Below are positions 29,273 to 48,452 of a DNA stretch of 64,000 bases, piece after piece. The notes under the pieces are model-generated. The model was not told the origin of the DNA. It searched no databases and saw only the letters and a program-made list of their open reading frames with translations. The stretch is from Bacteroidaceae bacterium (GTDB lineage: Bacteria; Bacteroidota; Bacteroidia; Bacteroidales; Bacteroidaceae): contig JAFUWG010000041.1 in the NCBI GenBank assembly GCA_017483605.1, forward strand, positions 1-64,000, in the 5' to 3' direction. Position 1 is the first letter of the stretch, and each line of letters opens with the position of its first letter. Made by a program: the position numbers and the translations under genes.

Positions 29273-30324
29273 AACGCTTTTACGTCCCCAAGTTCATCCT
29301 GCTCCTTTTGAGCATCCTCGTCTTCTTTGTGCTCAACCTCCTGTTGGGCACGGTGAAGATTCCGCTCGATGCCATTCTGGCGATTCTGATGGGTGGTTCC
29401 ATCGCCGACACACCTGCCGAGCAGCAGGTCATCTGGTCCAACATCATCTGGAGTTCCCGTGTGCCTCAAGCCCTCACCGCCACGGTGGCAGGTGCAGGCT
29501 TGGCGGTGAGCGGTTTGCAGATGCAGACCGTCTTCCGCAATCCCCTGGCAGGCCCCTCCGTCTTGGGCATTTCCAACGGTGCCTCCCTCGGCGTTGCCTT
29601 TGTGGTGTTGCTGTCGGGGTCGTTAGGCGGTGTGGCACTGAGCCGATTGGGCTATATGGGCGATGTCGCCATGTCCATCGCTGCCATCGTCGGTGCTTTG
29701 GCGGTCATGGGGTTGATTCTGTTCGTATCCCAACGTGTGAAAGGAAACGTGACCCTGCTCATCATCGGCGTGATGATTGGCTACCTTGCCAATGCCGTCA
29801 TCGGTGTGCTCAAGTTCTTTTCGGCTGAGGAGGACATCAAGGCATACGTGGTGTGGGGACTTGGATCCTTCGCTCGCGTCAGCGGCGACCAGATGGTGCT
29901 TTTCGTGATACTCATGGCGGTGTTGCTCCCCCTGAGCATGTTGCTGGTCAAGCCCATGAACCTGCTGCTCTTGGGCGACTATTATGCCCTCAATTTGGGA
30001 CTGAACCTTCGCCGTGCCCGACTGCTCGTCATCGGCTCCAGCGGCATCCTTGTCGCCATCGTCACCGCCTATTGCGGACCCATCATGTTCATCGGACTGG
30101 CGGTGCCTCACCTCTGCCGTGCCCTTTTCCGCACAGCCGACCACCGCATCCTCATGCCCGCCACCATGCTGGTCGGTGCCAGCCTTGCCCTGCTGTGCAA
30201 TCTCGTTGCCCGAATGCCAGGGTTTGAAGGTGCCTTGCCCGTCAATTCGGTCACGGCACTCATCGGCGCACCCATCATCGCCAGCGTGTTGTTCAGCAGG
30301 CGGAATGACGACATGAGAGAATAA
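29269..30324 (+). CDS. FecCD/BtuC-family ABC transporter permease
   Basis: 351 residues, about ten membrane helices. The family motifs are present: RVPQALTATVAGAGLAVSG near residue 65, then QTVFRNPLAGPSVLGISNGA, the PIMFIGLAVPHLCRALF coupling region and an ending at SVLFSRRNDDMRE. It forms the membrane pore with the binding protein encoded just upstream (4-base overlap). Corrinoid import is the best guess from context. A palindromic terminator element and a convergent cbi gene follow directly, so BtuD-type ATPase must be supplied from elsewhere in the genome. Confidence 0.9.
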   Translation: MKRFYVPKFILLLLSILVFFVLNLLLGTVKIPLDAILAILMGGSIADTPAEQQVIWSNIIWSSRVPQALTATVAGAGLAVSGLQMQTVFRNPLAGPSVLGISNGASLGVAFVVLLSGSLGGVALSRLGYMGDVAMSIAAIVGALAVMGLILFVSQRVKGNVTLLIIGVMIGYLANAVIGVLKFFSAEEDIKAYVVWGLGSFARVSGDQMVLFVILMAVLLPLSMLLVKPMNLLLLGDYYALNLGLNLRRARLLVIGSSGILVAIVTAYCGPIMFIGLAVPHLCRALFRTADHRILMPATMLVGASLALLCNLVARMPGFEGALPVNSVTALIGAPIIASVLFSRRNDDMRE

Positions 30325-32264: not shown

Positions 32265-34030
32265 CGGTCGCCCTTTCTGAACAAGTGGGTAAAATGTTTT
32301 GAATAAAGTTCGGAAAGACCTTTTCGGTTGTCAATCGCTTCGCCCACCACGAGCATGGTGGTGAGGGTCAGGTGGTTGTCGTGTACGATGCTGGCAAGGT
32401 CTTTCAATTGACCCCGATAGACGCGTTGGTCGGGCCATGTCAGGTGGTAGCAGGCGGCAACGGGCGTGTCTTCGGGATATTCCATCAGCAACTCCCTCTG
32501 TACATCATCGACGATGGCGGCACTGAGGAAGATGCACATGGTCGATTGGCTGCGGGCAAGGAGGTGGAGTTGCTCCTTTTCGGGCATGGGGGTGCGACCT
32601 TCGCCACGGGTGAGGATGATGGTCTGTGTGCGTTCGGGGATGGTGAACTGGCTACGGAGTTCGGCAGCGGCGGCAAGGAAGGAAGAGATGCCGGGGGTGA
32701 TGTGGTAGGACATCTGGTGGCGGTCGAAGAAAGCCATCTGCTCTTGGATGGCACCGAAGATGCAGGGGTCACCCGTGTGGAGACGAACGATGAACTTGCC
32801 TCGGTCGTAAAAGTCTTTCATCAGTTCACATTGTTCCTCCAACGCCATAGAGGCTGAAGAACGCACCACGGCACCCGACTTCGCACAGAGCGTCAACTCG
32901 CGAGGCACCAGACTTCCGGCATACAGGATGAGGTCGGCACGTTCGAGCATCTGCCTGCCCCGCACACTGACAAGGTCGGGGTCGCCAGGGCCTGCACCCA
33001 CTATCTCGATGTGCCCTTCACGCAAGTAGCGGCGGTCGATGGCGACGGCAAGCGTGTAGTCTTTCTCCGTTCCTTTCTGCTTGGGGATGAGGAGTTTGCC
33101 GCTGTTCGTCGCCACGAGGGCGGCGGCCTCGCTCACGCTGGGTGTGCCGACATGCTTGGCAACGGTATCGCTGGGCGTGGGCACCTCCACTTCGCCGAGT
33201 TGTTCCGAGGTAAAGAACACGACCTCTTTGCCCTGTTCCTGCAATGCCTTCACCACGGGCTCGTCCGCCTTCACGTCGATGGTGGCATAGCGGCGAACGG
33301 CATCTGGGGAGAAGCCGTTGGTCAGCAAATGCTGCCGGAAATCGGCAAGAATGCCTTCCACACGCCCTGCCTGATGAGCCAAGCCGATGCCGAGGGTGAG
33401 GACCGGAGGAACGTATTGAACGGCTGTGACTCCTTGCAGTTGCTGCACACGGGGCGAAACCAGAATGGCGAGTCGGAAACGTTCGGGCGTGATGTCCTCG
33501 ATGTGACGCACAAGGGTCACATGGGCAGGAAGGGTTCGCTCCAGCGTGTCGGTGCCTTCGTCGCGAATGTCGAGCCACAATGCGGTGGGTTCGCCATTGA
33601 CAAAGGCGGTGATGGGTGTGTTCAGGTCGTTGCCCGTGAGGCAAGTCCAACCGAACCGCTGAGCCAGCGTGTCGAGTGCCCAAAGACCCGTGTTGTCGCT
33701 TTGCGTGGTGATGACAGGTGCGGCTCCGAGGGCAGAGGCGACGATTTTCGTCAGGTCGTTGGCACCGCCGACATGCCCCGACAGCACCGAGATGGCGTGC
33801 CGACATGCCGTGTCAACACACACGACGGCAGGGTCGGTATGCTTGTCCTCCACCAACGAGGCGATGGTGCGGATGCAGATGCCGAGGGCACCGATGAAGA
33901 TAAAGGCATCAAAGTCGTGCCAATGGGCAGCCACGTCTTGACGGGTGATATGTTCGGCTTTCAGTTCCCCGCGAAGAATCGCAGCGGGCTTTACGCCTGC
34001 TTCGCCGATGGGGATGAGGGCAATTCGCAT
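32261..34030 (-). CDS. cbiG-cbiF: Fused cobalt-precorrin-5A hydrolase (CbiG) and cobalt-precorrin-4 methyltransferase (CbiF)
   Basis: 589 residues. Residues 1-335 are CbiG: FIGALGICIRTIASLVEDK, then VCVDTACRHAISVLSGHVGG, a middle domain, and the C-terminal ALVATNSGKLLIPKQK. Residues about 342-585 are CbiF/CobM: IEIVGAGPGDPDLVSVRG, LHTGDPCIFGAI and ILTRGEGRTPMPEKE, the SAM-binding precorrin methyltransferase motifs. CbiF methylates C11, and CbiG then opens the delta-lactone and releases acetaldehyde, so the fusion joins successive steps. The start overlaps the end of the CbiE-CbiT gene by 40 bp. Confidence 0.93.
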   Translation of the reverse strand: MRIALIPIGEAGVKPAAILRGELKAEHITRQDVAAHWHDFDAFIFIGALGICIRTIASLVEDKHTDPAVVCVDTACRHAISVLSGHVGGANDLTKIVASALGAAPVITTQSDNTGLWALDTLAQRFGWTCLTGNDLNTPITAFVNGEPTALWLDIRDEGTDTLERTLPAHVTLVRHIEDITPERFRLAILVSPRVQQLQGVTAVQYVPPVLTLGIGLAHQAGRVEGILADFRQHLLTNGFSPDAVRRYATIDVKADEPVVKALQEQGKEVVFFTSEQLGEVEVPTPSDTVAKHVGTPSVSEAAALVATNSGKLLIPKQKGTEKDYTLAVAIDRRYLREGHIEIVGAGPGDPDLVSVRGRQMLERADLILYAGSLVPRELTLCAKSGAVVRSSASMALEEQCELMKDFYDRGKFIVRLHTGDPCIFGAIQEQMAFFDRHQMSYHITPGISSFLAAAAELRSQFTIPERTQTIILTRGEGRTPMPEKEQLHLLARSQSTMCIFLSAAIVDDVQRELLMEYPEDTPVAACYHLTWPDQRVYRGQLKDLASIVHDNHLTLTTMLVVGEAIDNRKGLSELYSKHFTHLFRKGDR

Positions 34031-35229
34031 GATAGGATGGTGATGGGATTAAAATCGTTGAGTTGAATATGGAGCGGAGGAAGTTGCGTAAGGTGCTGTT
34101 CCTCGCACGCCTCGTCCCAAAGTTGGTGGCTTTGGGCTGTGACGGAGTTCATGACAATGCGACCCTGTGGGGGCATGATGGAAACGAGTTGAGCCATGAT
34201 GTCCTTGAGTTTGCCGCCATGACCGCCGATGAAGGCGGCATCGGGAGGGGTGTGGGTGGTCGCAAGGGCATCGCTACACACGGAACAGAAGTCGCCAATG
34301 AAGGTGGTGATGCCCGGGGCATGATGGCGACGGGTGTTTTCGTGCATGAGGGTTTCACCTTCAGGGCGAATTTCAAAGGCGGTGATGTCGAGATGAGGGA
34401 AGAGAAGACGGGCTTCGATGGAGACGGAGCCTGTGCAGAAGCCGATGTCCCAGAAGGTATGACGACGAGGGAGGTCAAGGGCTTGGAGGGTGAGGAGACG
34501 AATGGGCATTTTGGTGATCATCTTCTCGCGGCCATCGAGGAGGGAAAAGGAGGAATCGGGAATGCCAAAAGGAGCCAGTGTGGTTGCGACTGTGTCGCAA
34601 CATAGAGGACAGAGAATGAGGCAGTTGGGATGGGAGAAGTCCATACGGGCGGCTTCCTCCAAGGAGAGAGAGGTGACTTTCTCCTGAGTAGGGTTGCCAA
34701 GATGTTCGCCGACGTGCATCTGGTAGTGGGTGTAGCCATAATCAAGCATCCGTCGGGCTATGGTGGCAGGGGTGTGCTCCTTGTCGGTGAGGATGCCGAT
34801 TTTGGGAGCACCTTCGATGAGGGCACGGTCAAACGCTTTCCATGGGCGGCCAGTCAGCGAGACAATCCGCATATCATGGTAGGGCATGACCAACCGATGT
34901 GCCAGCATTTGCAAGGAGTTGAACGAGGGGAAAACCTTGATTGGCGAATCGGGAAACTCGCGTTGGAGGGTGTTGGCGAAGCCGAAGAAAAGCGGGTCAC
35001 CCGATGCGAAAACCACCACTTCCTCATGAGGCAGATACTGCTCGAAGACTGCCGAAAGGGGCACGGTGATGTCAATCCACACCGACCCTTCGGGCAAGAG
35101 CGGAGCCACAATGTCGTGGTGCCGTTTGCCACCTGAGAAGACCTTCCCCCTGCGTATCACCTCCTGCACTTCGGGAGGGAAGAACGGTTGCGGATGGTCG
35201 GTGATGCCTATAACGATGAATCTACTCAT
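33991..35229 (-). CDS. cbiE-cbiT: Cobalt-precorrin-7/-6B methyltransferase CbiE-CbiT (CobL-like)
   Basis: 412 residues from the ATG at 35229 (MSRFIVIGITDH). A TTG three codons earlier is in frame but less likely. Residues 1-215 form the CbiE tetrapyrrole methylase (VVVFASGDPLFFGFAN, MRIVSLTGRPWKAFDRAL), residues about 235-405 the CbiT Rossmann methyltransferase (TFWDIGFCTGSVSIEARLLF, AAFIGGHGGKLKDI). Together they methylate C5 and C15 and decarboxylate the ring. It is the long form known as CobL in aerobic bacteria. The spacer to the CbiH-CbiC gene (84 bp) contains octamer repeats. Confidence 0.93.
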   Translation of the reverse strand: MSRFIVIGITDHPQPFFPPEVQEVIRRGKVFSGGKRHHDIVAPLLPEGSVWIDITVPLSAVFEQYLPHEEVVVFASGDPLFFGFANTLQREFPDSPIKVFPSFNSLQMLAHRLVMPYHDMRIVSLTGRPWKAFDRALIEGAPKIGILTDKEHTPATIARRMLDYGYTHYQMHVGEHLGNPTQEKVTSLSLEEAARMDFSHPNCLILCPLCCDTVATTLAPFGIPDSSFSLLDGREKMITKMPIRLLTLQALDLPRRHTFWDIGFCTGSVSIEARLLFPHLDITAFEIRPEGETLMHENTRRHHAPGITTFIGDFCSVCSDALATTHTPPDAAFIGGHGGKLKDIMAQLVSIMPPQGRIVMNSVTAQSHQLWDEACEEQHLTQLPPLHIQLNDFNPITILSCELPSSPSAKQA

Positions 35230-35253
35230 AACTTTCAATCATTCAACTTTTTG

Positions 35254-35313: not shown

Positions 35314-36786
35314 TTACAAATCGCGTCCCGGTTTCAGCCCCTCGGCATCGTCGAAGGTGAGGATGGCGTTGCAAAGGGTGGCAGCGAGGTTGGAGCCGCC
35401 CTTTCTGCCTTCGACGATGATTTTAGGAATCTCGGTGAAGGGCTTGACCATGTGCTTCGATTCCTTCACGTGTACGAAGCCGACGGGAGCGGCAATGATG
35501 CCGGCAGGAGTCGCCTTGCCCTTGCGGATGAGGTCGCAGAGTTCCATGAGGGCTGTCGGGGCATTGCCAAAGACGAAGAGGGCGTCGGGATGCTCCTCGA
35601 CAGCGAGACGAATGGCGGCTTGGGTGCGGGTGAGACCGTTGGCAGCCGAACACTCCGCCACACGGGGGTCGCCCAAGTAGCACTTGGCTTCGATGCCGAG
35701 ACGGGCGAGGGCACCTTTGCGGATGCCGCTTTGCGCCATGGTCACATCGGTGACGATGGTGGTGATGGAACCGTCTTTGACTTTCTCATAGAGCCGCTCC
35801 ACCGCCCTTTCGTCGGTGTGGAGAATCTTCTCCATGTCGAAGTCGGCAGTCGTGTGAATGGCATGGAGAAGTGCCCATTTATGGCCAAGCGGGATGTCCT
35901 TGTTCCGCAGTTCACTTTCGATGGTTCGGAATGACTCCATCATAATGAGTTGACCAAGACCCCTTCTGTCCTGCAGGACATCTCCCCCTCTATGGGGAGA
36001 ACCATCCGGACAGGCTCCCTCCCCATAGAGGGGGAGGGTTGGGGAGAGGGTCTGATAGTAGCCACGGGGGGTGATGAAGGTTTTTCCCCATTGATACGAC
36101 TGCGAGTTGCCGATGAGCACCACAGTGAACATATCCACCTCTTCGGGGTCGAACGCACCGAGGGTGGTGAGCCTCACTTCCTCTTCGGAACGGCCTGCCT
36201 GACGGACATAGCCGACAGGTGTGTCCGCTGCCCTACCCTCCGACAGAAAGACTTCCTTCAGCCGATACAGTTGCCAGTACCTGCCATGCGATTTGGGGTT
36301 GTAGATGGCGGTGACAAAATCGCCCACGGCGGCGGCACGGATGCGGCGTTCGATGACTTCCCACGGGGTCATCAGGTCGCTCAGGGAAATGACACAGAAG
36401 TCGTGCCCCACGGGTGCCCCCAGCAGCGATGCCGCCTTCTGGAACGCCGAAATGCCCGGCAGAGAGGCGACTTCCACCTCGCTGTTCCGCTCCTTCTTCA
36501 TCTCATAGACCAGCGGCGTCATGCCGTAGATGCCTGCATCGCCCGACGAGATGACCACCACGTTCTTGCCCTGTTCCGCCAGATTGAAAGCCTGTTTGGC
36601 ACGGTCACGCTCTTTCTTCATGCCCGTGTCGATGCACTCGCACCCTGCCTTCAGGTAGGGTTGTACAAACTGAAAATAATACCTGTAGCCCACCACGGCA
36701 TCCGCTTCGCCCACCGCCTTCAAGACGGCAGGCGTGATGTCCTCGGGACTTCCTGGCCCTATGCCAACCACTGTGATTTTACTCAT
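35314..36786 (-). CDS. cbiH-cbiC: Fused cobalt-precorrin-3 methyltransferase (CbiH) and precorrin-8X methylmutase (CbiC)
   Basis: 490 residues. Residues 1-245 are CbiH/CobJ (VVGIGPGSPEDITPAV, VVISSGDAGIYGM, FVTAIYNPKSHGRY, VVLIGNSQSY). Residues about 283-488 are CbiC/CobH (LLHAIHTTADFDMEKIL with the catalytic His, TIVTDVTMAQSGI, GNAPTALMELCDLI, PAGIIAAPVGFVHVKESK, EGRKGGSNLAAT). CbiH does ring contraction with C17 methylation, CbiC moves a methyl from C11 to C12. The linker, residues 246-279, is low-complexity and is encoded by a perfect inverted repeat, see 35982-36036. The leader carries inverted octamers and no cobalamin riboswitch. Confidence 0.93.
   Translation of the reverse strand: MSKITVVGIGPGSPEDITPAVLKAVGEADAVVGYRYYFQFVQPYLKAGCECIDTGMKKERDRAKQAFNLAEQGKNVVVISSGDAGIYGMTPLVYEMKKERNSEVEVASLPGISAFQKAASLLGAPVGHDFCVISLSDLMTPWEVIERRIRAAAVGDFVTAIYNPKSHGRYWQLYRLKEVFLSEGRAADTPVGYVRQAGRSEEEVRLTTLGAFDPEEVDMFTVVLIGNSQSYQWGKTFITPRGYYQTLSPTLPLYGEGACPDGSPHRGGDVLQDRRGLGQLIMMESFRTIESELRNKDIPLGHKWALLHAIHTTADFDMEKILHTDERAVERLYEKVKDGSITTIVTDVTMAQSGIRKGALARLGIEAKCYLGDPRVAECSAANGLTRTQAAIRLAVEEHPDALFVFGNAPTALMELCDLIRKGKATPAGIIAAPVGFVHVKESKHMVKPFTEIPKIIVEGRKGGSNLAATLCNAILTFDDAEGLKPGRDL
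35982..36036. repeat. REP-like inverted repeat inside the CbiH-CbiC linker
   Basis: CTCCCCCTCTATGGGGAG at 35982-35999 and its exact reverse complement CTCCCCATAGAGGGGGAG at 36019-36036, separated by 19 bp, with GGGTTGGGGAGAGGG beyond. This GC-rich palindrome is of the type seen between genes in Bacteroidetes, yet here it is in frame and coding, precisely where the two enzyme domains join. Confidence 0.85.
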
Positions 36787-38429: not shown

Positions 38430-40502
38430 TTACTGCTTGAACTTCACCTTCAGTCCCACCACCAACATTCTGCCCGGCGAATAGAGGGCATACTTGCGGG
38501 CGGAGGAATCGATGCGGCGGTCCACACGGTCGAAGAGATTGTCCACGCCGATGGAGGGCTCCAGCAATGCCCAACGCACACAGTCGAAGGTGTGGGTGGT
38601 CTGCAAGTTCCAGATGCCGAAGCCGGGGGCGTTCTCGTAGGAACCCATATAGTAGGTCTTGGACTGGAGTCGCCCGTTGAGGTTGACGTTCAACGCATAC
38701 TTGCCCCACACGTGATGATAGTTGGCAGCGAGGATTGCCGTGTTGCGGATGCTGCGTTCGAGCACGCTCCACTCGTCGCCGCTCTTCGTGCGAGCGTAGG
38801 TGTAGGCATAGTTGGCAGAGAGGTTGAAGCCTCGGAAGAGGTTGGCAGACACGTTGACCTGAATGCCTTTCACGTCGCCACGGTCGCTGTTCTGATAGAG
38901 CGAGTAGCGTTCCAACTTACCCGCCTCGTCGTCGGTCATCTCGGGGAACTCGCCTCGGAGCATGGCAAGCGAGGCATCGTCGGTGTCGATGGTCTGACGC
39001 ACCACCATGTCGTTGATGCGGTTCAGGTAGCCCGTCAGGCTGACCACCAGCGCCTTGGTGTGGTACTCGGCATTGAGCGAGAGGTAATGGCTCTTCTCGG
39101 GAGAAAGGCCTGTGTTGCCGAAAATAATCTGCGGTTTGCCACGACTGACGGCATAATAGTGGTAGTACAGTTCATCAAGCCCCGGGGCACGGAAACCTGC
39201 CGAATAGGTGGCACGGAAGTTGAACGCCCCGGGCGAGTACATGAGCGTCGCCTTGGGTGTGAAGTGGTCGCCGAAGGTCTCGTGGTGCGTATAGCGGGCA
39301 CCGAGGGTGGCAGTGAAGTCGCGAAGGAACTTCTGCTCATGCTGGGCATAGGCGGCAAGCGTGTAGGCGTTCTTGTCGATGTTGCCCGAGGTGGCAAAGA
39401 GATAGTCCTTTCGCCAGTCGGCTCCGAAGATGGTCGTGCCGCCTTCGGTCAGCCCAAGGATGGCTTTCAGTTCTCCGTCTATCTGCCGCTGCTTCTTCGA
39501 GAGGGTGTAGTCGCCCACCTGATAGGTCTTTGTCTCCACGTCATATTCGCGTCCGTAGCGGAAATTGTCCACCACGAAGTCTGCCTGCACGGAGTTCCTG
39601 TCGGTGAACTTATAGATGCCGCCCACGTTCCACCGAAGCCCCTTGTAGCGCATCTCATAGTCGGTGCCGCCCGTGATGTCTGTGCGAGAGTTGGGGCGGT
39701 CGGTGATTTTGTAGGAATAGTCGATGCCTGCATTGAGTGCCAGGTGCTTGTCGGGCGAATAGGTGAACTTCTGACCGAGCACATCGGAACGGTAGCCCGT
39801 GAAGAGGGGGGCGATGGTCTGCTGCGTTTCGGTGTCGGAGCCTTTCACATATTCGAGGTCGGTCGTCTGGTAACTGTCGGCACGGTCGTGCGTGTAGGAC
39901 GTGTAGGAGCCGAAGCCGTGGGTGTAGATGTCGAGTGTTGCCGACTCGGTGAGTTGCCCATGACCGCTGATGCGGGTGTCGCTCATGACGGAGACGAGTT
40001 GCTGTGTGGGCTGGTCGGTGATGATGTTGATGACACCTGCAATGGCGTCGCTGCCGTAGAGGGAGGATGCGGCACCGTCGAGCACCTCGATTCGCTTCAC
40101 CCGCGCCATGTTGATGCGGTTGAGGTCCACGTTGTTGGAGATGTCGCCCGAGAGTTTCTGTCCGTTGACAAGGATGAGGATATACTTATTGCCCAAGCCG
40201 TTCAGACGCAGGAAGGTGCCCATCGAACTGGGCGCCATCGACACCTGCGGCATCATGCGGGTGAGGGCTGCATCGAATGTGCTGATGCCTTGCTCGCTGA
40301 TTTCACGGCTGGAAAGCACGTGTACGGGGGTGGCGGTTGCCTTCAACCGCTGGTGGTGTCCCGAGCCAGTCACCACCACTGGATTCAAATTATAAGTACG
40401 CTCTGTTGCGGTGGAGTCGCGATGCTCCATCCGGTGCACCTGGGCAAAAGCGGCACTCCCAAAGGAGAGTGCCGCCGCCAGCATGATAACTCTGCTGTTC
40501 AT
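38430..40502 (-). CDS. TonB-dependent outer-membrane receptor, BtuB-like
   Basis: 690 residues, signal peptide 1-20. A TonB-box/plug begins near YNLNPVVVTGSGHH (about 36-50), the plug runs to about 165 (LNGLGNKYILILVNGQKLSG, VLDGAASSLYGSDAIAGVINI), and the 22-strand barrel ends with the expected aromatic-type strand GLKVKFKQ. The size and the absence of an N-terminal carboxypeptidase-like domain or adjacent SusD exclude a SusC protein. It follows the CbiK-like lipoprotein by 25 bp in the unit headed by the cobalamin riboswitch, so corrinoid or related tetrapyrrole uptake is likely. Confidence 0.9.
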   Translation of the reverse strand: MNSRVIMLAAALSFGSAAFAQVHRMEHRDSTATERTYNLNPVVVTGSGHHQRLKATATPVHVLSSREISEQGISTFDAALTRMMPQVSMAPSSMGTFLRLNGLGNKYILILVNGQKLSGDISNNVDLNRINMARVKRIEVLDGAASSLYGSDAIAGVINIITDQPTQQLVSVMSDTRISGHGQLTESATLDIYTHGFGSYTSYTHDRADSYQTTDLEYVKGSDTETQQTIAPLFTGYRSDVLGQKFTYSPDKHLALNAGIDYSYKITDRPNSRTDITGGTDYEMRYKGLRWNVGGIYKFTDRNSVQADFVVDNFRYGREYDVETKTYQVGDYTLSKKQRQIDGELKAILGLTEGGTTIFGADWRKDYLFATSGNIDKNAYTLAAYAQHEQKFLRDFTATLGARYTHHETFGDHFTPKATLMYSPGAFNFRATYSAGFRAPGLDELYYHYYAVSRGKPQIIFGNTGLSPEKSHYLSLNAEYHTKALVVSLTGYLNRINDMVVRQTIDTDDASLAMLRGEFPEMTDDEAGKLERYSLYQNSDRGDVKGIQVNVSANLFRGFNLSANYAYTYARTKSGDEWSVLERSIRNTAILAANYHHVWGKYALNVNLNGRLQSKTYYMGSYENAPGFGIWNLQTTHTFDCVRWALLEPSIGVDNLFDRVDRRIDSSARKYALYSPGRMLVVGLKVKFKQ

Positions 40503-40527
40503 TTATAATCAGGTAAAAAGAATGGTT

Positions 40528-41625
40528 TTATTCTTCTGGGTTCTTAGAGTGATAGTAGTCGAGTGGTTCGCCTGCGATAGCGTCGGCTGTGTGGTTCATC
40601 CAGATTTGGCGAACTGTAGGCAACTCAAGCAGACCCTTCTCAATCATGGTGCTGTTGTCGCAGGTGTAACCCATGTGAGAGAAGTACATCTTCCAAGAAG
40701 TGTCTTCCACTTCACCTTCCTCGTTAGCCTCGAAGCCATTGTCCCAAGCATCGTCGTCGCCAGCCATGTCGTTGTGACCGTGGTCACCGTCGATGGACAT
40801 GAGTGGGTGGCAGTAAACCTTGCCGGATGTGATGCCTGCTGCCTGCATACGAGCGAGCACGTGGGTCTTGAAGTTCTCCATCATATCGACTGTGCCGACG
40901 AAGTAGTTGGGGCTGAGTGTCTGCAAAGCCTCTTCCAACTCGGTGTAGCGAATGTTTGCCTTGTAAGTGTCGTAAGAGTCAGGATTACCGTGACCCATGA
41001 AGGCAACCACGCTGTTGGCAGCCTTGTCCTTGTAGAGATTGTCAAGAGCCTTGGCTACGGCAGGAACGTCCTCGTCCTTGTCCTGAAGAAGTGGCACGCC
41101 GAGTTTCAAGGTCACGTTGGCCAAGTAGTCATCGTCGATGTCGCCGTTGGCATTGTTGGCGAAGTCCTTGATGTAATTGATGACACGGGTATATTCCTCA
41201 CCAGGGATGACCTGAAGAGACTGCACCACGATTTCGCTGTACTGCACACCCTCCTGAGCAAAGGCTGCGAGCCAGAATGGAGGTGCATAGAAGTTGCGAG
41301 GTGCTACATTCTCGCCAGCGGCTGCACGGTTGATGCAGATGGCTGAAGAGAAAGAAAGATACACGTCGTAGCCAGGGAATGCGGTCTTGTAGGCTGCCAC
41401 GGTGCTGTCAAATGCATCGTAAGCCTGCTGCCAAGTGGAGCCGAATGCCACGAGCAGGATGGCCTTTGAATTCCTCTTCTGTGCCTTGACGGTCTGATTG
41501 ACTGCATCTTGATAGACGGTGTAGTTGTTCTTCACATCGTCATCGTCGTCGTCGCTACAAGCGGTGAAACTTACAGCGGTCATGATGGCAACGGCTGCCA
41601 TCATCAAATACTTAATCGCTTTCAT
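40528..41625 (-). CDS. CbiK-like (IhtB/FetB-like) chelatase-fold surface lipoprotein
   Basis: 365 residues. The lipoprotein signal ends SFTAC (Cys23), immediately followed by SDDDDDD, an acidic stretch of the kind that sends Bacteroidetes lipoproteins to the cell surface. The remainder is the CbiK sirohydrochlorin cobaltochelatase fold: AILLVAFGSTWQQAYDAFD, VQSLQVIPGEEYTRV (His of SLH is Gln138), AFMGHGNPD (H212), YFVGTVDMMENF (Asp247 where CbiK usually has Glu), and SIDGDHGHNDMAGDD (H282). The best known relatives outside the cytoplasm are the haem-binding lipoprotein IhtB/FetB of Porphyromonas and periplasmic CbiK of Desulfovibrio. Lying between two BtuB-like receptors behind a B12 riboswitch, it may capture or metal-exchange corrinoids or tetrapyrroles. 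Confidence 0.85.
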   Translation of the reverse strand: MKAIKYLMMAAVAIMTAVSFTACSDDDDDDVKNNYTVYQDAVNQTVKAQKRNSKAILLVAFGSTWQQAYDAFDSTVAAYKTAFPGYDVYLSFSSAICINRAAAGENVAPRNFYAPPFWLAAFAQEGVQYSEIVVQSLQVIPGEEYTRVINYIKDFANNANGDIDDDYLANVTLKLGVPLLQDKDEDVPAVAKALDNLYKDKAANSVVAFMGHGNPDSYDTYKANIRYTELEEALQTLSPNYFVGTVDMMENFKTHVLARMQAAGITSGKVYCHPLMSIDGDHGHNDMAGDDDAWDNGFEANEEGEVEDTSWKMYFSHMGYTCDNSTMIEKGLLELPTVRQIWMNHTADAIAGEPLDYYHSKNPEE

Positions 41626-43819
41626 TGTTGTTTGAATTAGAGTTATTAAATGTTGATTGATATGTGTTCTTGAGTTTCTTTCCCTGATGGAACCGCACGG
41701 TCAGCGACGCATAAATGGTGGTGCCTGGCGTGGTGGTGCCCAGATGCAACCCGTGAGGGGTCTTGTCGATGTAGTTGAAAAGATTATCGACACCTGCCTC
41801 CACGCGATAGTCGCACGACTTGGCATGTCCGAGGTCGTGGGAGGTGGAGAGTCGCCAAATCTGATACCCCTTGCCGTTGCCGTCAATCTGGTAAAAGCGT
41901 GTGGAAGACATACGGCCATAGATGCCGACGCCAAGGCGATAACTGGGGGAGAATGTGTGATTCCACGTGGCGAAGAGGTTGCCCTTGTGGTGGGCGGTTC
42001 CGTCGATGACAACGGTGTGCATACGGTCGTGGTTGGTGTCGTACTGGTTGGCTTCGGTGTCGAGATAACTATAGCCCACACCGAAGGCAAAGTGCTTGAT
42101 GGAATACCGCACGTTCACATCCATGCCGCAGGTCCGCACGTCTTCGATGTTCTGATACTGGCGGGTCTTCACGGGGTCGTACTGCAGGATGTACTCGTCG
42201 GGGGCTTGATAGTTGGGGATGGTCACAAGGGCTATCATGTCGCGTACCTTATTATAATAGCCCGACACGGTGACGGAGAGTCCGCCACGGGTGTATTCGC
42301 CACTGAGGGAGAAGTAATTGCTTGCCTGTGGCTTCAGGTTGGTATTGCCCAGATAGAGGTAGGTGCCGCTCATCTGACGGACGTAGCGATAATGAAGTTC
42401 TTTGGTTGTCGGGGTCTTGAAGCCTTGGCTCCATGTGGCACGGATACGCCACGGTTCGCCCACTTTCAGCATGGCAGAAACCTTGGGGGTGAGCCGCCAG
42501 CCAAACTGCTGGTTGTCGTTCAGGCGGAGACCTGCGGTGAGGTGTGCTGCCACCGTGCTGCTACACAGCCAACGCCACTCGTCCTGCACATAGAGGGCAC
42601 CCGTCCAGTCGCTCACCTTGCCACCTGCCACACGCGTGGGGGCTTTCAGCCAGTCGTAGCGATACTCCAGACCGGCACTCAACTGATTGTCGTAGGGCAG
42701 GGTGAAGATGCCCTTCAGGTTCGCCATCGTGCGTTGCTGGTCGCTCTGCAGTTCGGTCTGATCAGGCAGATAGGGGAAGTATGGATAATAGAGGGTGCCG
42801 CGGCTCTTCTCATAGTCTTCCACCAGCGTGTTGGCGGTGAAATAATAGTAATAAGCATGGCGGTTCCAATCCAGGTCGAGGGTCACTTGGTCGGTCTGGT
42901 TCAGTTTCCACTTGCCACCTACCGACGCACTCTGATTGCTGTATTGGAGGTCGTAGGTATGAACATCATATCGGGGGTACTTGCCGCTGGGGCGGTAGAT
43001 TCGTTTGCCGTAAGTGCTACCCTCGGCATAGAGTTCCATGTCTTTGCTGAAGGTGTAAGTGAGGCGTTCTGCCACCTGCCAGTTGGTGTGACGATTGACG
43101 GTCTTGTTGCGTGAATCGGTAATAGGATCTTCCCCCACTGACGTATGCTCCACCGCCGTGTTCTGCCAGCCATCGGAATGTTGCAACTGGAAGTTGGTAT
43201 AACTGCTCCACTTCCCCAGATTGAGGGCAATGCCGTTGTGCTGACGCAAGTCACCGTAAGAGCCACCACGGGTGGTGTTCTCCAGCAGCAACCCTTCCTT
43301 GTCATGCTTTTTGGTGATGATGTTGATGACGCCCGCAATGGCATCGCTGCCATAAAGTGCGGAAGAGGCTCCTTTCACAATCTCTATCTTCTCGATGTTC
43401 TGAGGGTCGATGAGCGAAAGGTCATTCTCGCCACCCACATCGCCATGGATGCGTTTGCCGTCAATCAGGATGAGAATGTAGGAGTTGCCCAGACCGTTCA
43501 ACTGCATCTGGCTGCCCATGTCGTCCTCGTTGAATGCAAACGACGCAGTCAACCCACCGAGGATATCCTCGATGGAACGTCCGGCATAGTTTTGCAACAT
43601 CTTGCCGCTGATGACTTCCGTCTGGACGGGTGCGTCCTTCAGCAAGTGCTGGGTGCCGGTTCCGGTCACAACGACTTCCTGCAAGGTGCCCGCATTCTGT
43701 TCGTCTGCTTTGGGAGCGTTACCCCAAGCGGCTTGCGGTATCCCACCCTTCAAGGTGTCTTGTGCCAACAATGTCTGGGCAAGGCACAATAATGCCAACC
43801 CAATGAACCATCTTTTCAT
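41612..43819 (-). CDS. TonB-dependent outer-membrane receptor, BtuB-like, under riboswitch control
   Basis: 735 residues from the ATG at 43819 (MKRWFIGLAL; eight more codons are open upstream). Signal peptide 1-20. A short linker (GGIPQAAWGNAPKADEQ) precedes the plug, which starts near LQEVVVTGTGTQH and runs to about 165 (LNGLGNSYILILIDGKRIHG, IVKGASSALYGSDAIAGVIN). The barrel fills the rest and ends GTTIYASLTVRFH, after which about 24 residues rich in Asn and Ser follow, an unusual tail for a barrel that normally ends with its last strand. First gene after the cobalamin riboswitch, so corrinoid import is well supported. Its 3' end overlaps the CbiK-like gene by 14 bp. Confidence 0.92.
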   Translation of the reverse strand: MKRWFIGLALLCLAQTLLAQDTLKGGIPQAAWGNAPKADEQNAGTLQEVVVTGTGTQHLLKDAPVQTEVISGKMLQNYAGRSIEDILGGLTASFAFNEDDMGSQMQLNGLGNSYILILIDGKRIHGDVGGENDLSLIDPQNIEKIEIVKGASSALYGSDAIAGVINIITKKHDKEGLLLENTTRGGSYGDLRQHNGIALNLGKWSSYTNFQLQHSDGWQNTAVEHTSVGEDPITDSRNKTVNRHTNWQVAERLTYTFSKDMELYAEGSTYGKRIYRPSGKYPRYDVHTYDLQYSNQSASVGGKWKLNQTDQVTLDLDWNRHAYYYYFTANTLVEDYEKSRGTLYYPYFPYLPDQTELQSDQQRTMANLKGIFTLPYDNQLSAGLEYRYDWLKAPTRVAGGKVSDWTGALYVQDEWRWLCSSTVAAHLTAGLRLNDNQQFGWRLTPKVSAMLKVGEPWRIRATWSQGFKTPTTKELHYRYVRQMSGTYLYLGNTNLKPQASNYFSLSGEYTRGGLSVTVSGYYNKVRDMIALVTIPNYQAPDEYILQYDPVKTRQYQNIEDVRTCGMDVNVRYSIKHFAFGVGYSYLDTEANQYDTNHDRMHTVVIDGTAHHKGNLFATWNHTFSPSYRLGVGIYGRMSSTRFYQIDGNGKGYQIWRLSTSHDLGHAKSCDYRVEAGVDNLFNYIDKTPHGLHLGTTTPGTTIYASLTVRFHQGKKLKNTYQSTFNNSNSNNNESD
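43709..43729. repeat. Coding copy of the small palindrome also found at 10986-11037
   Basis: CTTTGGGAGCGTTACCCCAAG; on the coding strand it gives WGNAPK between signal peptide and plug of the receptor. The intergenic copies read the same peptide in one frame. Confidence 0.65.
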
Positions 43820-43877
43820 AAATGTCGTTGTTTCGCCCCGCATGTTCCTGTGCGTGCGTACATACTTTAATATAGGA

Positions 43878-44040
43878 CATTGGCAGGTCTCCTGGCTTTC
43901 CCCCTGTCTGCCTACCTTCCCGATGTTGTCATCAGTGGCTTGTCTCGAACAGACGTTTACAAGAGGGGATTACAGTTGCAGGTACAGCCCAGGTTTTTCA
44001 CCTGATTCCCTTGCATCGGCTGATGCCGATTACCAAATTC
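43878..44040 (-). ncRNA. Cobalamin (B12) riboswitch
   Basis: On the minus strand the conserved core is complete: GGGAATCAGGTG, then CCTGGGCTGTACCTGCAACTG with GTAATCCCC (about 43954-44014), GCCACTG, GGGAAGG and the B12 box AGCCAGGAGACCTGCC (43882-43897). It starts at the predicted transcription start near 44040 and ends about 60 bp before the receptor ATG. When adenosylcobalamin or another cobalamin binds, receptor, CbiK-like lipoprotein and second receptor should be shut down. The spacing does not show a clear terminator, which fits control by masking the translation start, as is common in Bacteroidetes (inference). Confidence 0.95.
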
Positions 44041-44046
44041 TGACTG

Positions 44047-44054
44047 CAAATATA
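44047..44054 (-). promoter_or_regulatory. -7 promoter element feeding the cobalamin riboswitch
   Basis: Minus strand TATATTTG matching TAnnTTTG, directly upstream of the riboswitch core; a TTTG at 44077-44080 (minus strand) is a possible -33 box at a slightly long spacing of 22 bp. Confidence 0.6.
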
Positions 44055-44110: not shown

Positions 44111-46906
44111 ATGAAGTCAAGTTTTCTCATCGCAGCCCCTCAAAGTGGCTCTGGCAAGACAACGATTGCCAGAGGTTTGATGGCGTTGTTTGTGCAACAA
44201 GGATTGACGGTGCAGCCGTTCAAATGTGGGCCTGACTACATCGACACGAAGTTTCATGCTGCCGTGTGTGGACGCCCAAGCATCAATCTGGACACGTTCA
44301 TGGCAACAAAAAACCATGTGAAGGCTCTGTTTGGCTATTATGGAAAAGAGGCAGACGTTTGTGTGGTGGAGGGCATGATGGGACTGTTCGACGGCTATGA
44401 CCAAGACCACGGCTCGTCGGCAGAGATTGCCCAAGTGTTGGGACTGCCAATTGTGCTGGTGGTGGATGCCAGGTCTGCTGCCTATTCGATGGCGGCTCTG
44501 CTGAGTGGCTTCCTGCATTTTCGGGAGGACACGCACATTGCAGGGGTCATCTTCAACAAAGTGGGTTCGGCAAAACATCGTGCCATGCTGCAGCGGGTGT
44601 GCGATGACCTCGGAGTGACGTGCTTCGGCTTCTTGCCAAAGAGTCCGTCGCTCGAAACAGGGTCTCGTTATCTGGGGCTGGACTTTTCGGAGGAGACTCG
44701 CCACCGAGAACTGGTCGCGATGCTGCACGAGCAGGTGGATTGGCAACGGCTCTTGCAACTGCATTCTTCCTTAGACTTCACCACCTGTCCACCCTTTCAA
44801 CCGACCCTTTCTTCTGGGAAAGTGCTCGTTGCCCGCACGGCAGAATCGTTCTCGTTTCTCTACCAAGAAACGCTGGACCAATGGGAACAGGTCACATTTT
44901 TCAATCCAGAAGAAAACCGTCCCATCCCCGACGACACGGAACTGCTCTACCTGCCTGGAGGTTATCCCGAGAAACACCTGGAGGCGTTGGCAAATGCCTC
45001 GAAAACACGGGAATCCATTCGCCGCTATGCGGAAAGGGGCGGGCGTATCCTTGCGGAATGTGGCGGAATGATGTACCTGTGCCGCCACATCGTGACAGAC
45101 GAAGGTGAATACCCCATGTGCGGCGTACTCCCCTACTCCATCAGTGCCCGACAAGCCGACCGTAAACTTTCGCTCGGCTATCGGCGTTTCGTGCTGGATG
45201 GCAAGGAATATCGTGGGCATGAGTTCCACTACACACAATTTCTGGAAGAGACGCCTCCCTCCGCCGCACAGGTCTATAACGCCACGGGCGAGCCGGTATC
45301 AACTCCTATCTTAAAGTATAAAAATGTGCTGGCAAGTTATACGCATTTGAGCCCCACATCCCCACAAGGGGAAAAGCATTCGCTGTGGAAATCAAGTGAG
45401 AGGCATCGCGTCAGCCCTTCCCCTTTGGGGGTCGGGAGGCTTCACCCTGTGATGTTGGCAGGAACGGGCAGCGACGTGGGCAAGAGTGTGCTGGCAGCGG
45501 CTTTCTGTCGAATCTTCCGTCAGGATGGTTACCAACCAGCCCCGTTCAAGGCTCAAAACATGGCACTCAACTCTTACGCCACACCCGAAGGTCTGGAAAT
45601 CGGCAGGGCACAGGCGGTGCAGGCTGAGGCGGCGGGCATCCCTTGCCACACAGACATGAACCCCCTGCTGCTGAAGCCTCAGAGCGACCACACCAGTCAG
45701 GTGGTGCTGAATGGACGCCCCATCGGCAATCGGGATGCCTACGACTATTTCCGCAAGGAGGGGCGAGAAGAATTGCGGCGTGAGGTCTGTGCGGCTTTCG
45801 ACCGCCTGTCTCAACGGTTCAACCCCATTGTGATGGAAGGGGCTGGCAGCATCTCCGAACTGAACCTGCGTGACCACGACTTGGTCAATTTGCCGATGGC
45901 ACGACATGCCGATGCCGATGTCTTTCTGGTGGGCGACATCGACCGCGGCGGCGTGTTTGCCTCGGTCTATGGCAGCATCGCCTTGCAGACACCCGAGGAC
46001 AGGCGACGAATCAAAGGTATCATCATCAACAAGTTCAGAGGCGACCTGCGGCTGTTTGACGACGGTCGGAAGATGCTGGAAGACTTGTGCCAAGTGCCGG
46101 TACTGGGTGTGGTGCCTTATTATCATCAAATCTATGTGGAGGAGGAAGACAGCGTGGACTTGGCACAAAAGTCTATGCAGGCTCAGCGAGGCAAGGTCAA
46201 CGTGGCGGTGGTGCTTTTGCGGCATTTGTCCAACTTTACCGACTTCAATGTGCTGGAACGTGACCCACGGGTACACTTGTTCTACACCAACAATACCGAG
46301 GACTTGCTGAAGAGCGACATCATCATCCTGCCTGGCTCCAAATCGACCCTCAGCGACCTTTATGAACTGCGTCGCAACGGAGTGGCACAGGCGATTATCC
46401 GTGCCCATCGAAAGGGAACGAGCGTGATGGGCATCTGCGGAGGCTATCAGATGATGGGTGTGGAAGTGTGCGACCCGCATCATCTGGAGGGGGACATCGA
46501 GCGTCTGCCCGGATTGGGACTGCTGCCTGTCAGCACGACCATGACGGACGAAAAGACCACCCGTCAAGTCACCTTCAACGGAGGAATGCACGGCTACGAG
46601 ATTCATTGCGGCGAAACCCGACCCTTCGGCACGGCGGAAGAAAGCCCGCTTGCCACTTTCGACGACGGACACACTGACGGCTACGTGGTGGACGACAAGT
46701 GCATGGGCACCTATATTCATGGCATCCTCGACAACCCTGCGTTCATCGACCGACTGCTGCAGCCTTTTGCCGACAAGATGGAGGAGGCAAGCACAGCGTT
46801 CGACTACCACGCCTTCAAAGAGCAGCAATATGACCTCCTTGCCGACCACGTGCGGCAGCACATCGACATGGAGCGAGTCTATCAAATACTGAAAGGAGAA
46901 TCATGA
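44111..46906 (+). CDS. cbiA-cobQ: Fused cobyrinate a,c-diamide synthase (CbiA) and cobyric acid synthase (CobQ/CbiP)
   Basis: 931 residues from the ATG at 44111 (MKSSFLIAAPQ); a TTG three codons earlier overlaps the promoter box. The CbiA half (1-410) has P-loop APQSGSGKTT, PFKCGPDYIDTKFH, VVEGMMGLFDGYD and a glutaminase domain with Cys in ILAECGGMMYL. The CobQ half (about 440-925) has AGTGSDVGKS, APFKAQNMALNSYAT, LVGDIDRGGVFAS, LPGSKSTLSDL and glutaminase Cys in VMGICGGYQMM. CbiA amidates side chains a and c, CobQ b, d, e and g, with ATP and glutamine. The linker (about 412-441) is encoded by an imperfect palindrome, see 45360-45431. It overlaps cobU by four bases. Confidence 0.95.
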   Translation: MKSSFLIAAPQSGSGKTTIARGLMALFVQQGLTVQPFKCGPDYIDTKFHAAVCGRPSINLDTFMATKNHVKALFGYYGKEADVCVVEGMMGLFDGYDQDHGSSAEIAQVLGLPIVLVVDARSAAYSMAALLSGFLHFREDTHIAGVIFNKVGSAKHRAMLQRVCDDLGVTCFGFLPKSPSLETGSRYLGLDFSEETRHRELVAMLHEQVDWQRLLQLHSSLDFTTCPPFQPTLSSGKVLVARTAESFSFLYQETLDQWEQVTFFNPEENRPIPDDTELLYLPGGYPEKHLEALANASKTRESIRRYAERGGRILAECGGMMYLCRHIVTDEGEYPMCGVLPYSISARQADRKLSLGYRRFVLDGKEYRGHEFHYTQFLEETPPSAAQVYNATGEPVSTPILKYKNVLASYTHLSPTSPQGEKHSLWKSSERHRVSPSPLGVGRLHPVMLAGTGSDVGKSVLAAAFCRIFRQDGYQPAPFKAQNMALNSYATPEGLEIGRAQAVQAEAAGIPCHTDMNPLLLKPQSDHTSQVVLNGRPIGNRDAYDYFRKEGREELRREVCAAFDRLSQRFNPIVMEGAGSISELNLRDHDLVNLPMARHADADVFLVGDIDRGGVFASVYGSIALQTPEDRRRIKGIIINKFRGDLRLFDDGRKMLEDLCQVPVLGVVPYYHQIYVEEEDSVDLAQKSMQAQRGKVNVAVVLLRHLSNFTDFNVLERDPRVHLFYTNNTEDLLKSDIIILPGSKSTLSDLYELRRNGVAQAIIRAHRKGTSVMGICGGYQMMGVEVCDPHHLEGDIERLPGLGLLPVSTTMTDEKTTRQVTFNGGMHGYEIHCGETRPFGTAEESPLATFDDGHTDGYVVDDKCMGTYIHGILDNPAFIDRLLQPFADKMEEASTAFDYHAFKEQQYDLLADHVRQHIDMERVYQILKGES
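45360..45431. repeat. REP-like inverted repeat inside the CbiA-CobQ linker
   Basis: CCCCACAAGGGGAAAAGC (45360-45377) pairs with GCCCTTCCCCTTTGGGGG (45414-45431) with 14 of 18 positions matching, and each arm also contains its own small palindrome. It encodes a Ser/Pro/Gly/His-rich stretch between the two enzyme halves. Confidence 0.7.
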
Positions 46907-47409
46907 GAAAAATCATACTCATCACAGGCGGTCAGCGTTCGGGCAAGAGCCGCCACGCGGAGGAATTGGCATTGTCGCTGAGTGCCAACCCCGTGTATGT
47001 GGCAACCGCCCACGTGTGGGACGAGGAGTTTCGTGAGCGGGTGAAGATACACCAGCAGCGGAGAGGCAACGAGTGGACGAACATCGAGGAGGAACGCTAC
47101 CTGAGCCATCATGACCTCATGGGACGGGTGGCTGTCATCGACTGCATCACGTTGTGGTGTACCAACTTCTTTTTTGAGTTGCAAGACGTCACCTCGTCGC
47201 TCGATGCCTTGAAGAAAGAGTTTGACCTGTTTACAGCACAAGACGCCACATTCATTTTCGTGACCAACGAGATTGGTTCGGGCGGCGTAAGCGACAACGC
47301 CGTTCAGCGAAAGTTCACCGACCTGCAAGGCTGGATGAACCAATATGTTGCCCAACATGCTGACGAGGTCATCCTCATGGTCAGTGGAATACCCGTCAAA
47401 ATCAAATGA
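46903..47409 (+). CDS. cobU: Adenosylcobinamide kinase / adenosylcobinamide-phosphate guanylyltransferase
   Basis: 168 residues. P-loop ITGGQRSGKSRHAEELAL near the start, the guanylyltransferase His region in RVKIHQQRRGNEW, VAVIDCITLWCTN and the VTNEIGSGGVSDN motif make this CobU. It phosphorylates adenosylcobinamide and transfers GMP to it during nucleotide-loop assembly. It overlaps the CbiA-CobQ gene and the cobT gene by four bases each, so the three are translationally coupled. CobS, which should use its product, is not in the window. Confidence 0.95.
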   Translation: MRKIILITGGQRSGKSRHAEELALSLSANPVYVATAHVWDEEFRERVKIHQQRRGNEWTNIEEERYLSHHDLMGRVAVIDCITLWCTNFFFELQDVTSSLDALKKEFDLFTAQDATFIFVTNEIGSGGVSDNAVQRKFTDLQGWMNQYVAQHADEVILMVSGIPVKIK

Positions 47410-48452
47410 AAACGTTCAACATACAACAACCTGACGAGACGCTGCGTCTCGCCATTCAAGACAAGATAGACAACCTGAACAAGCCCAAAGGCTCGCTCGG
47501 CCGATTGGAGGGGCTTGCCATGCAGGTATGCCTCATTCAGCAGACACTCACCCCTTCGCTCGCCTACCCTTGCCACCTGCTGCTGGGTGGCGACCACGGC
47601 ATCGAACGAGAGGGCGTCAGCGTGAGTCCTCGCGAGGTGACATGGCAGCAAATGGTGAACTTCACCCGTGGCGGTGGCGGTGTGAACATGTTCTGCCGCC
47701 AGCATGGGTTTGACCTGCGGATTGTGGATGTGGGTGTTGACCACGACCTGTCGGGAGTGGACGGCATCATCGACCGTAAGATTGCCCGTGGCACCAAGAA
47801 TTTTCTCTACGAGCCCGCCATGTCGGAGGCAGAAATGGAGCAAGCCATCCACATCGGCATCGACCTAGTGGATGACTGCATCGGCGAGGGCTGCCGGGTG
47901 CTTTGCATCGGCGAGATGGGCATTGCCAACACCTCGCCATCCAGCGTGTGGATGAGCCTCTTTGGGCAAATTCCGCTTGCCGAATGCATCGGGGCTGGGG
48001 CAGGGCTTGACTCGCCTGGCATCAGACATAAATGTGAAGTGCTGACCCAAGCGGTAGAGCGGTTTTTGAAGACCTCTCCACACTACACGACAGAGGAAGC
48101 CATCCGCTATTTTGGAGGATTCGAAATGGTCGTTGCCATCGGTGCCATGCTGCGGGCAGCGGAGCGGCATCTGGTCATCCTTGTGGACGGTTTCATCATG
48201 ACAGCCTGTGCATTGGCGGCTTGCCAAATTGCTCCTGCCGCACAACCTTACATGGTTTTCACCCATTGCGGCGACGAGAGCGGACACCGCAAGATGCTCG
48301 ACCTCTTGCACGCCCAGCCCTTGCTGCACCTTGGGCTGCGACTAGGCGAAGGAACAGGGGCTCTGTGTGCCTTCCCCATCGTGGACTCTGCCGTCCGCAT
48401 GATGAACGAGATGAACAACTTTAACAACGCAAAAATCACTAAATATTTCTAA
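47406..48452 (+). CDS. cobT: Nicotinate-nucleotide-dimethylbenzimidazole phosphoribosyltransferase
   Basis: 348 residues. CobT features: LNKPKGSLGRLEGLAMQV at the start, LLGGDHGIEREGVSVSP, the GEMGIANTSPSS block, VDGFIMTACALAA, and the C-terminal LGLRLGEGTGA with the catalytic Glu. It activates the lower-ligand base with nicotinate mononucleotide to give the alpha-ribotide added to GDP-cobinamide. Base specificity is not set by sequence alone; no bza genes for anaerobic dimethylbenzimidazole synthesis are nearby, so adenine or scavenged bases may be used. Confidence 0.95.
   Translation: MKTFNIQQPDETLRLAIQDKIDNLNKPKGSLGRLEGLAMQVCLIQQTLTPSLAYPCHLLLGGDHGIEREGVSVSPREVTWQQMVNFTRGGGGVNMFCRQHGFDLRIVDVGVDHDLSGVDGIIDRKIARGTKNFLYEPAMSEAEMEQAIHIGIDLVDDCIGEGCRVLCIGEMGIANTSPSSVWMSLFGQIPLAECIGAGAGLDSPGIRHKCEVLTQAVERFLKTSPHYTTEEAIRYFGGFEMVVAIGAMLRAAERHLVILVDGFIMTACALAACQIAPAAQPYMVFTHCGDESGHRKMLDLLHAQPLLHLGLRLGEGTGALCAFPIVDSAVRMMNEMNNFNNAKITKYF

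Follow-up and report, generated by a model that had tools for sequence, protein, structure and literature searches.

What would a protein with the fold of the cobaltochelatase CbiK do at the cell surface, encoded between two outer-membrane receptors and behind a cobalamin riboswitch? The locus that raises this question lies in a Bacteroidaceae bacterium (GCA_017483605.1, 81.5% complete) on contig JAFUWG010000041.1, of which we analysed positions 1 to 64,000 of the forward strand (64,000 nucleotides, here called the window). The riboswitch (43865..44052, minus strand) gave a single RF00174 match of 90 bits (cut-off, 31.5) over the full model, 1-189. It heads three genes on the same strand, which encode a TonB-dependent receptor of 743 amino acids (receptor 1, 41612..43843), a CbiK-fold lipoprotein of 365 amino acids (40528..41625; PF06180, E 1.8e-40, 139.3 bits against a cut-off of 26.2) and a second TonB-dependent receptor of 690 amino acids (receptor 2, 38430..40502). 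The likely start of receptor 1 is the ATG at 43819, with a signal peptide. The first two genes overlap by exactly 14 bp, and exactly 25 bp separate the lipoprotein gene from that of receptor 2. The riboswitch, the gene order, the overlap and the gap agree with a first-pass annotation made from the sequence. That annotation also called the receptors BtuB-type. Both matched PF00593 and PF07715 and are TonB-dependent receptors, but the BtuB label is loose: their similarity to BtuB is distant, with TIGR01779 (TonB-B12) scores of 155.1 bits for receptor 2, where it was the best NCBIfam model, and 122.3 bits for receptor 1, far under the BtuB equivalog cut-off of 599.7.

The N-terminus of the lipoprotein reads FTAC-SDDDDDD, a lipobox with Cys23 followed by SDDDDDD, as the annotation had seen. 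With this lipobox and acidic export signal, the protein is predicted to sit at the cell surface. It has a class II chelatase fold, and FetB of Porphyromonas gingivalis was among the top matches by both sequence and fold. For the metal site, we took His/Glu/His to be the ligands of CbiKP from Desulfovibrio vulgaris and used them as the reference. The corresponding residues in the window are His212, Asp247 and His282, with Gln138 at a further position, which bears out the two histidines, the Asp and the Gln first noted there. The lipoprotein thus departs from the CbiK enzyme in its ligand set, in carrying a lipoprotein signal where the enzyme is cytoplasmic, and in its score against the enzyme equivalog model NF047852 (99.8 bits; cut-off, 400).

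To place this protein among its relatives, PF06180 was searched in 201 genomes of one bacterial family, many of them drafts assembled from metagenomes. It was present in 71, and 94 proteins could be placed, with their neighbourhoods fetched. A scripted motif search assigned them to three classes: class B, the window type (60, or 61 with the window), and the periplasmic classes A (n=20) and C (n=14). Second fragments of split matches (G002, G062 and G091) and a weak 60-amino-acid frame of G150 were left out of this count, as was the window's own row, which was re-entered as WINDOW_B. A signal-like hydrophobic stretch precedes the domain in 94/94, by a simple scripted hydrophobicity rule rather than a signal-peptide predictor, and by eye none of the 94 appears cytoplasmic. 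None of the 61 class B proteins departs from His212, Asp247 or His282, so that Asp stands in place of Glu throughout the class; position 138 holds Gln in 51 proteins and His in the other 10, and the lipobox column is Cys in 59. His/Glu/His is retained in 20/20 class A proteins, while class C lost both histidines in 14/14 and has an acidic residue at the third position in 3. Class B forms a single clade in the tree, sister to FetB (support 100/97), a join that the program flags as long branches. Class A is not a single clade, since its members from G029, G052 and G071 group with class C. Nine genomes hold classes A and B together, and class C occurs in 14 genomes, 12 of them from the window's genus.

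The arrangement of the genes is conserved as well. A receptor of the receptor 1 type (TBDR1) lies directly upstream of the lipoprotein gene in 55 of the 60 family loci, and the two genes overlap by 14 bases in 34 of 55 measurable junctions and by 11 in 7. A BtuF-type gene comes next in 18/60. We also inspected named loci, the best 80 of 556 relatives, many on short contigs, from records labelled Prevotella, Prevotellaceae, Bacteroidaceae and Bacteroidales, several of them from ruminant stomachs. Receptor 1 is directly upstream in 79 of these, and the remaining locus ends there; a corrin gene lies within the available stretch in 54/80. A gap of -242 (L058) and the largest overlaps among the named loci come from over-long reading frames. 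The invariant ligand positions in 61 proteins and the recurrent 14-base overlap put the trio beyond chance, and exact coordinates with conservation in tens of genomes rule out an artefact. Two genomes that closely resemble each other carry a tandem CbiK-fold pair behind one receptor (L065, 8498-10662, minus; L067, 8216-10380, plus), the second copy without a clear lipobox.

The first-pass annotation had tied its corrinoid role to B12 riboswitches being the rule among homologues, and this is what we found. RF00174 was searched in 69 relatives, which comprise each genome with a placed CbiK and do not include G150. (An earlier text-pattern search had missed two of the three known riboswitches of the window's genome and was dropped in favour of Rfam.) A same-strand riboswitch lies upstream within 8 kb at 58 of the 60 class B loci; 56 of the matches are above the Rfam cut-off, and those of G171 and G199 are below it at 24-27 bits. 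Both misses have little upstream sequence (165 and 3110 bases). The corresponding counts are 15/20 for class A and 0/14 for class C, and a riboswitch was upstream in 8/8 scanned loci among the 80 named ones.

A riboswitch of this kind would suit salvage as well as synthesis. The trio could be a BtuB-type system for finished cobamides or cobinamide, with the CbiK fold replacing BtuG. Like Bacteroides BtuB-BtuG loci, it sets a cobalamin riboswitch, a TonB receptor and a surface lipoprotein gene side by side; the overlap between receptor and lipoprotein genes recalls BtuB-BtuG, and both receptors bear their distant similarity to BtuB. However, the protein between the receptors has a CbiK fold, unrelated to the BtuG propeller or to the accessory lipoproteins BtuH and BtuJ, and to our knowledge no class II chelatase binds cobalamin. 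The distribution of the module also looks unlike that of a salvage system. When CbiK was set against CbiD, the marker of the cobalt-early pathway, across the 201 genomes, both were found in 66, CbiK alone in five (G003, G030, G145, G150 and G169), CbiD alone in three (G058, G076 and G094) and neither in 127 (Fisher p 5.6e-43, a guide only, as kinship among genomes inflates these p-values). The module often lies inside or beside a corrin-ring gene cluster. A salvage system, equally useful to auxotrophs, would be expected equally often in genomes without corrin-ring genes, yet CbiK occurs in just 5 of the 132 without CbiD. This ties the module to synthesis rather than salvage. It also divides an earlier conclusion, that the protein could have no part in de novo synthesis: a surface protein cannot be an ordinary cytoplasmic cobaltochelatase, but it keeps company with corrin-ring synthesis.

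The window's genome, moreover, appears to have an ordinary cobamide salvage locus in addition to the trio. Two further cobalamin riboswitches lie outside the window, and one of them (L008) heads genes for a DUF4465 lipoprotein, a DUF5074 protein, a PKD protein, a receptor and a BtuF-type protein. We take DUF5074 (PF16819) to be the BtuG propeller, a mapping of our own. BtuG-type and BtuH-type lipoproteins had been described as absent, with the trio standing in for them; the absence holds for the window but not for the genome, and the stand-in role is unsupported because of this locus. B12 binding is reported for DUF4465 proteins, often beside PF16819 propellers, and that paper describes PF16819 only as a propeller domain found there (PMC13398666). 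The same source names the DUF4465 proteins of B. theta BtuJ1 and BtuJ2, and we dropped BtuH as a name for the L008 gene. BtuG is present in 106 of 109 btuB operons (PMC6143338). Taken together, these data make uptake of finished cobamides rather unlikely as the role of the trio.

If the trio serves synthesis, which step does it serve? We searched 44 genomes for TP-methylases with one Pfam model, PF00590, in two runs with E cut-offs of 1e-15 and 0.01; the weakest CbiL row was 2.8e-25, and short or extra proteins were typed by NCBIfam (10 proteins) or by phmmer against those 10. Of the 50 genomes with class B and no class A, 26 were covered. CbiL was found in two (G002 and G091) and SUMT, the precorrin-2 synthase, in one (G183), while 24 of the 26 had both CbiF and CbiH (exceptions, G169 and G030). 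Among these 24, PF00590 found no CbiL in 22 and no SUMT in 23. Neither enzyme was found by this model in the window's genome, 81.5% complete as it is, with HemA to HemD outside the search; its earliest detected corrin-ring step is CbiH, and every ring enzyme from CbiH through CbiP is present in the window. Class A genomes looked different. CbiL was found in 15 of the 16 covered (of 20), and SUMT in four (G177, G191, G032 and G037); the exception, G003, has no CbiL and none of CbiD, CbiF and CbiH. The contrast in CbiL between the two groups gave a Fisher p of 2.1e-8, again among related genomes. G058 and G094, with CbiD and no CbiK, have CbiL, and SUMT was not found in them by PF00590.

Nor did a cytoplasmic cobalt-inserting enzyme come to light. 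CbiX was not found in the window's genome. Of 41 relatives at least 90% complete, 16 gave an above-cut-off CbiX match that fell on their own exported CbiK of class A; two marginal matches (22.4 bits; cut-off, 22) lay at other sites of two class A genomes, G032 and G177. Thus, with PF06180 in 201 genomes and CbiX in the window's genome and 41 relatives, we found no clear cytoplasmic class II chelatase, the two marginal matches aside. Since CbiL and SUMT went undetected in nearly all the class B genomes without class A that were covered, the pathway there seems to begin at CbiH. There is no visible route to precorrin-2, to cytoplasmic cobalt insertion or to C20 methylation, yet CbiH to CbiP are kept, and a supply from outside at about the level of cobalt-factor III is the simplest account.

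This same gap bears on a second explanation, in which the lipoprotein would bind Co2+ or a cobalt complex through His212, Asp247 and His282 and pass the metal to a receptor for B12 synthesis. A metal site that is invariant in 61/61, a B12 riboswitch and corrin genes nearby would all fit it, and some TonB receptors are predicted to be cobalt specific, one of them behind an adenosylcobalamin riboswitch, none being confirmed (PMC7689651). However, most class B genomes covered that have no class A yielded no SUMT, CbiL or class II chelatase with which free cobalt could be put into sirohydrochlorin, and an entire tetrapyrrole-binding fold would have been retained merely to hold an ion. We consider cobalt acquisition unlikely.

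We therefore favour, tentatively and at a little under an even chance, the reading that the trio serves to take up, across the outer membrane, a half-finished cobalt tetrapyrrole, e.g., cobalt-factor III, which the cell would complete to B12. In outline, this keeps the first proposal of a corrinoid or metal-tetrapyrrole capture or exchange module under B12 control, given the exported CbiK fold and the frequency of the riboswitch, though its stand-in and synthesis parts do not carry over. The reading joins what is seen directly in the sequences, namely the riboswitch, the conserved pairing of receptor and lipoprotein, the link to corrin genes and, in almost every class B genome without class A that was covered, the failure to detect SUMT and CbiL, to functional steps that we infer. 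Because a riboswitch heads the trio, low cobalamin would open it, and the module would be made mainly under cobalamin lack. Receptor 1 and the lipoprotein, with their overlapping genes, would be produced together. At the surface, the lipoprotein would hold a cobalt isobacteriochlorin at the His/Asp/His site of the old chelatase pocket, and the likeliest candidates are cobalt-factor III and its near precursors. The lipoprotein may then hand this ligand to receptor 1, receptor 2 or both, much as BtuG serves BtuB, which is an analogy only. BtuFC-type proteins would carry the ligand further, and the ring would be completed in the cytoplasm by CbiH and the Cbi enzymes that act after it.

Several points weigh against this reading. 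Cobalt-factor III is a presumed ligand, and its presence as a free compound in the gut or rumen is likewise presumed. The absence of CbiL and SUMT comes from one Pfam model applied to largely draft genomes, with HemA to HemD outside the search, which would also overlook any unrelated enzyme that had taken over from CbiL. Class B and the missing steps do not always go together, because G002 and G091 do possess CbiL, G183 carries a HemC-SUMT-HemD fusion, and classes A and B co-reside in nine genomes. G058 and G094 have the pathway marker and CbiL with no CbiK at all. In P. gingivalis, the ihtA promoter is bound by HaeR, a haem-responsive two-component regulator, and the binding increases at low haemin (PMC3764172); IhtB has been presented as a putative haem-binding lipoprotein with a possible role in stripping iron from haem (PMC10913741).

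These last two findings argue for a third alternative, acquisition of haem or haem iron, as proposed for Porphyromonas IhtAB/FetB. Iht, with its receptor IhtA, the CbiK-like lipoprotein IhtB/FetB and an ATP-binding cassette (ABC) transporter, is among the closest known systems, and its lipoprotein is the nearest relative of class B; we take IhtB and FetB to be the same protein. FetB is the sister of class B in the tree and a top match by sequence and fold, but it retains the Glu ligand that is Asp in class B. The window module adds a second receptor downstream and has corrin-ring genes nearby, whereas Iht is annotated as a haem system. Further, we take His96 to be the haem ligand of CbiKP; it aligns with Thr146 in the window, at a position that varies in class B and is His in 2/61. 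Both systems place a TonB receptor gene and then a lipoprotein gene behind a B12 riboswitch: in P. gingivalis, a coenzyme B12 riboswitch is reported upstream of ihtA, a BtuB homologue, while ihtB is called an outer-membrane chelatase that removes iron from haem (PMC3764172). IhtB decreases in an hmuS mutant (PMC13227078), which again speaks for haem. IhtB is said not to be Fur regulated, which speaks against it, and the Iht system is called hardly characterised (PMC10913741). A B12 riboswitch at nearly every class B locus, and the one reported for ihtA itself, fit poorly with haem uptake, for which a separate CobN-type locus in the window's genome (L011) may serve. On balance, a haem role for the trio appears distinctly improbable. 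In L011 (G000:C33, 5306-10027, minus), a CobN-family chelatase of 981.5 bits, possibly an HmuS-type haem protein, has a lipoprotein gene nearby; HmuY identity for that lipoprotein is unsupported (PF13944, 25.9 bits; cut-off, 30).

The lipoprotein can also be set beside other CbiK proteins. CbiKP (2xvx, 2xvy, 2xvz) is periplasmic, whereas class B proteins are predicted surface lipoproteins, and its Glu184 corresponds to Asp247 of the window. The Salmonella CbiK (1qgo, 2xwp) is cytoplasmic and matched the window lipoprotein at only 1.5e-12; the exported class A protein of G191, the one class A protein compared, is much closer to it (1.5e-38). The Asp that replaces Glu throughout class B would suit a protein that only binds its ligand, but also a chelatase that is slower or works differently, and sequence cannot discriminate between the two. 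In class A genomes, with CbiL kept and SUMT mostly not found by PF00590, the pathway seems to be entered one or two steps earlier, and cobalt may then be inserted in the periplasm. A broader scheme is possible, if doubtful: the family would have moved cobalt insertion out of the cytoplasm, with class A loading imported sirohydrochlorin in the periplasm, class B acting as the surface receptor for a cobalt-loaded intermediate of the cobalt-factor III type that enters the pathway at CbiH, and class C as a relic or a carrier in the periplasm. On this scheme, half-made B12 would pass between members of rumen and gut communities by way of a dedicated, riboswitch-controlled uptake system, to which the Porphyromonas iht locus, labelled as haem, would also belong.

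Tetrapyrrole precursor salvagers have been defined before, and P. gingivalis was noted to be without precorrin-2 synthesis (Shelton et al., PMC6461909). The genomes described here resemble those organisms in carrying genes for the corrin ring and nucleotide loop, while the earliest steps appear to be absent in most of those covered. The previous cases are mostly Firmicutes and were tested with 5-aminolevulinic acid (ALA), whereas here the gap seems to reach SUMT and CbiL and is accompanied by a dedicated outer-membrane module. In rumen genomes, CbiK has been called both a sirohydrochlorin transporter and a cobalt inserter, citing Lobo 2008, and one of the organisms studied there is said possibly to need to import pathway intermediates (PMC12654859). 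Beyond these statements, we found no description in the open-licence PMC literature of a receptor-lipoprotein module as a precursor-uptake system. The module type itself has a precedent in one pathogen, where it is labelled as a haem system. The novelty lies in how closely, throughout a family, it accompanies an incomplete corrin pathway, and in the resulting reading. If true, that reading would explain how Bacteroidales without precorrin-2 synthesis come to own the later corrin pathway, as in the P. gingivalis puzzle. It would name the uptake proteins and reveal a form of cross-feeding in which early B12 intermediates, and not the finished vitamin, are exchanged. It suggests that many Prevotella-like gut and rumen bacteria with the module may finish B12 from the half-made molecules of their neighbours, and it suggests a re-reading of the iht locus. 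Exported CbiK annotated as "sirohydrochlorin cobaltochelatase" may also inflate the count of gut and rumen Bacteroidota that make B12 from scratch.

The surroundings of the trio, from 28 to 48.5 kb of the window, form a corrin-ring and loop gene cluster of the cobalt-early type. On the plus strand, about 10 kb from the trio and opposite to it, lie genes for a BtuF-like periplasmic binding protein (28097..29272, PF01497) and a BtuC-like permease (29269..30324, PF01032; NF003001 at 189.6 bits, below its cut-off of 334). Four fusion genes follow on the minus strand: CbiJ-CbiD (30471..32264; TIGR00312, PF02571), CbiG-CbiF (32261..34030; TIGR01465 and CbiG models), CbiE-CbiT (33991..35238; TIGR02467, TIGR02469) and CbiH-CbiC (35314..36786; TIGR01466 and CbiC models). 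Beyond the trio, and divergent from its riboswitch, the plus strand encodes a CbiA-CbiP fusion (44111..46906; TIGR00313, NF002204), CobU (46903..47409; NF004469, PF02283) and CobT (47406..48452; TIGR03160). The stretch that separates receptor 2 from CbiH-CbiC holds an iron-containing alcohol dehydrogenase gene (36966-38147, minus). Since this enzyme was never the best match of a reading frame in 103 surveyed loci and the 80 named loci, the gene appears to have been inserted locally.

Elsewhere in the genome, the third cobalamin riboswitch (L009, G000:C8, 3468-3787, plus) lies upstream of genes that by eye resemble a biotin carboxylase and carboxyltransferase. A second exported CbiK-fold protein (L010, G000:C45, 10140-11024, plus) has lost both His ligands, as in class C; its gene lies between those for an M6-type peptidase, a BtuD-like ATPase and CobS. 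Among the relatives, G152 has a second, truncated CbiG-CbiF copy away from its main cluster (L211, 3551-4861, plus). The fusion of G183, a member of the window's genus (L209, 4277-9796, plus), is accompanied by a Met8-like gene and, by eye, by HemB-, HemA- and HemL-like frames, with no CbiL. In two genomes of genus g3 (G177, L212, 2593-8457, minus; G191, L214, 2109-8075, minus), the SUMT gene has as neighbours what appear by eye to be ABC genes and genes for a TonB receptor and a periplasmic binding protein, a setting that would suit import of a still earlier tetrapyrrole. A third SUMT of this kind was present in G032 (L248).

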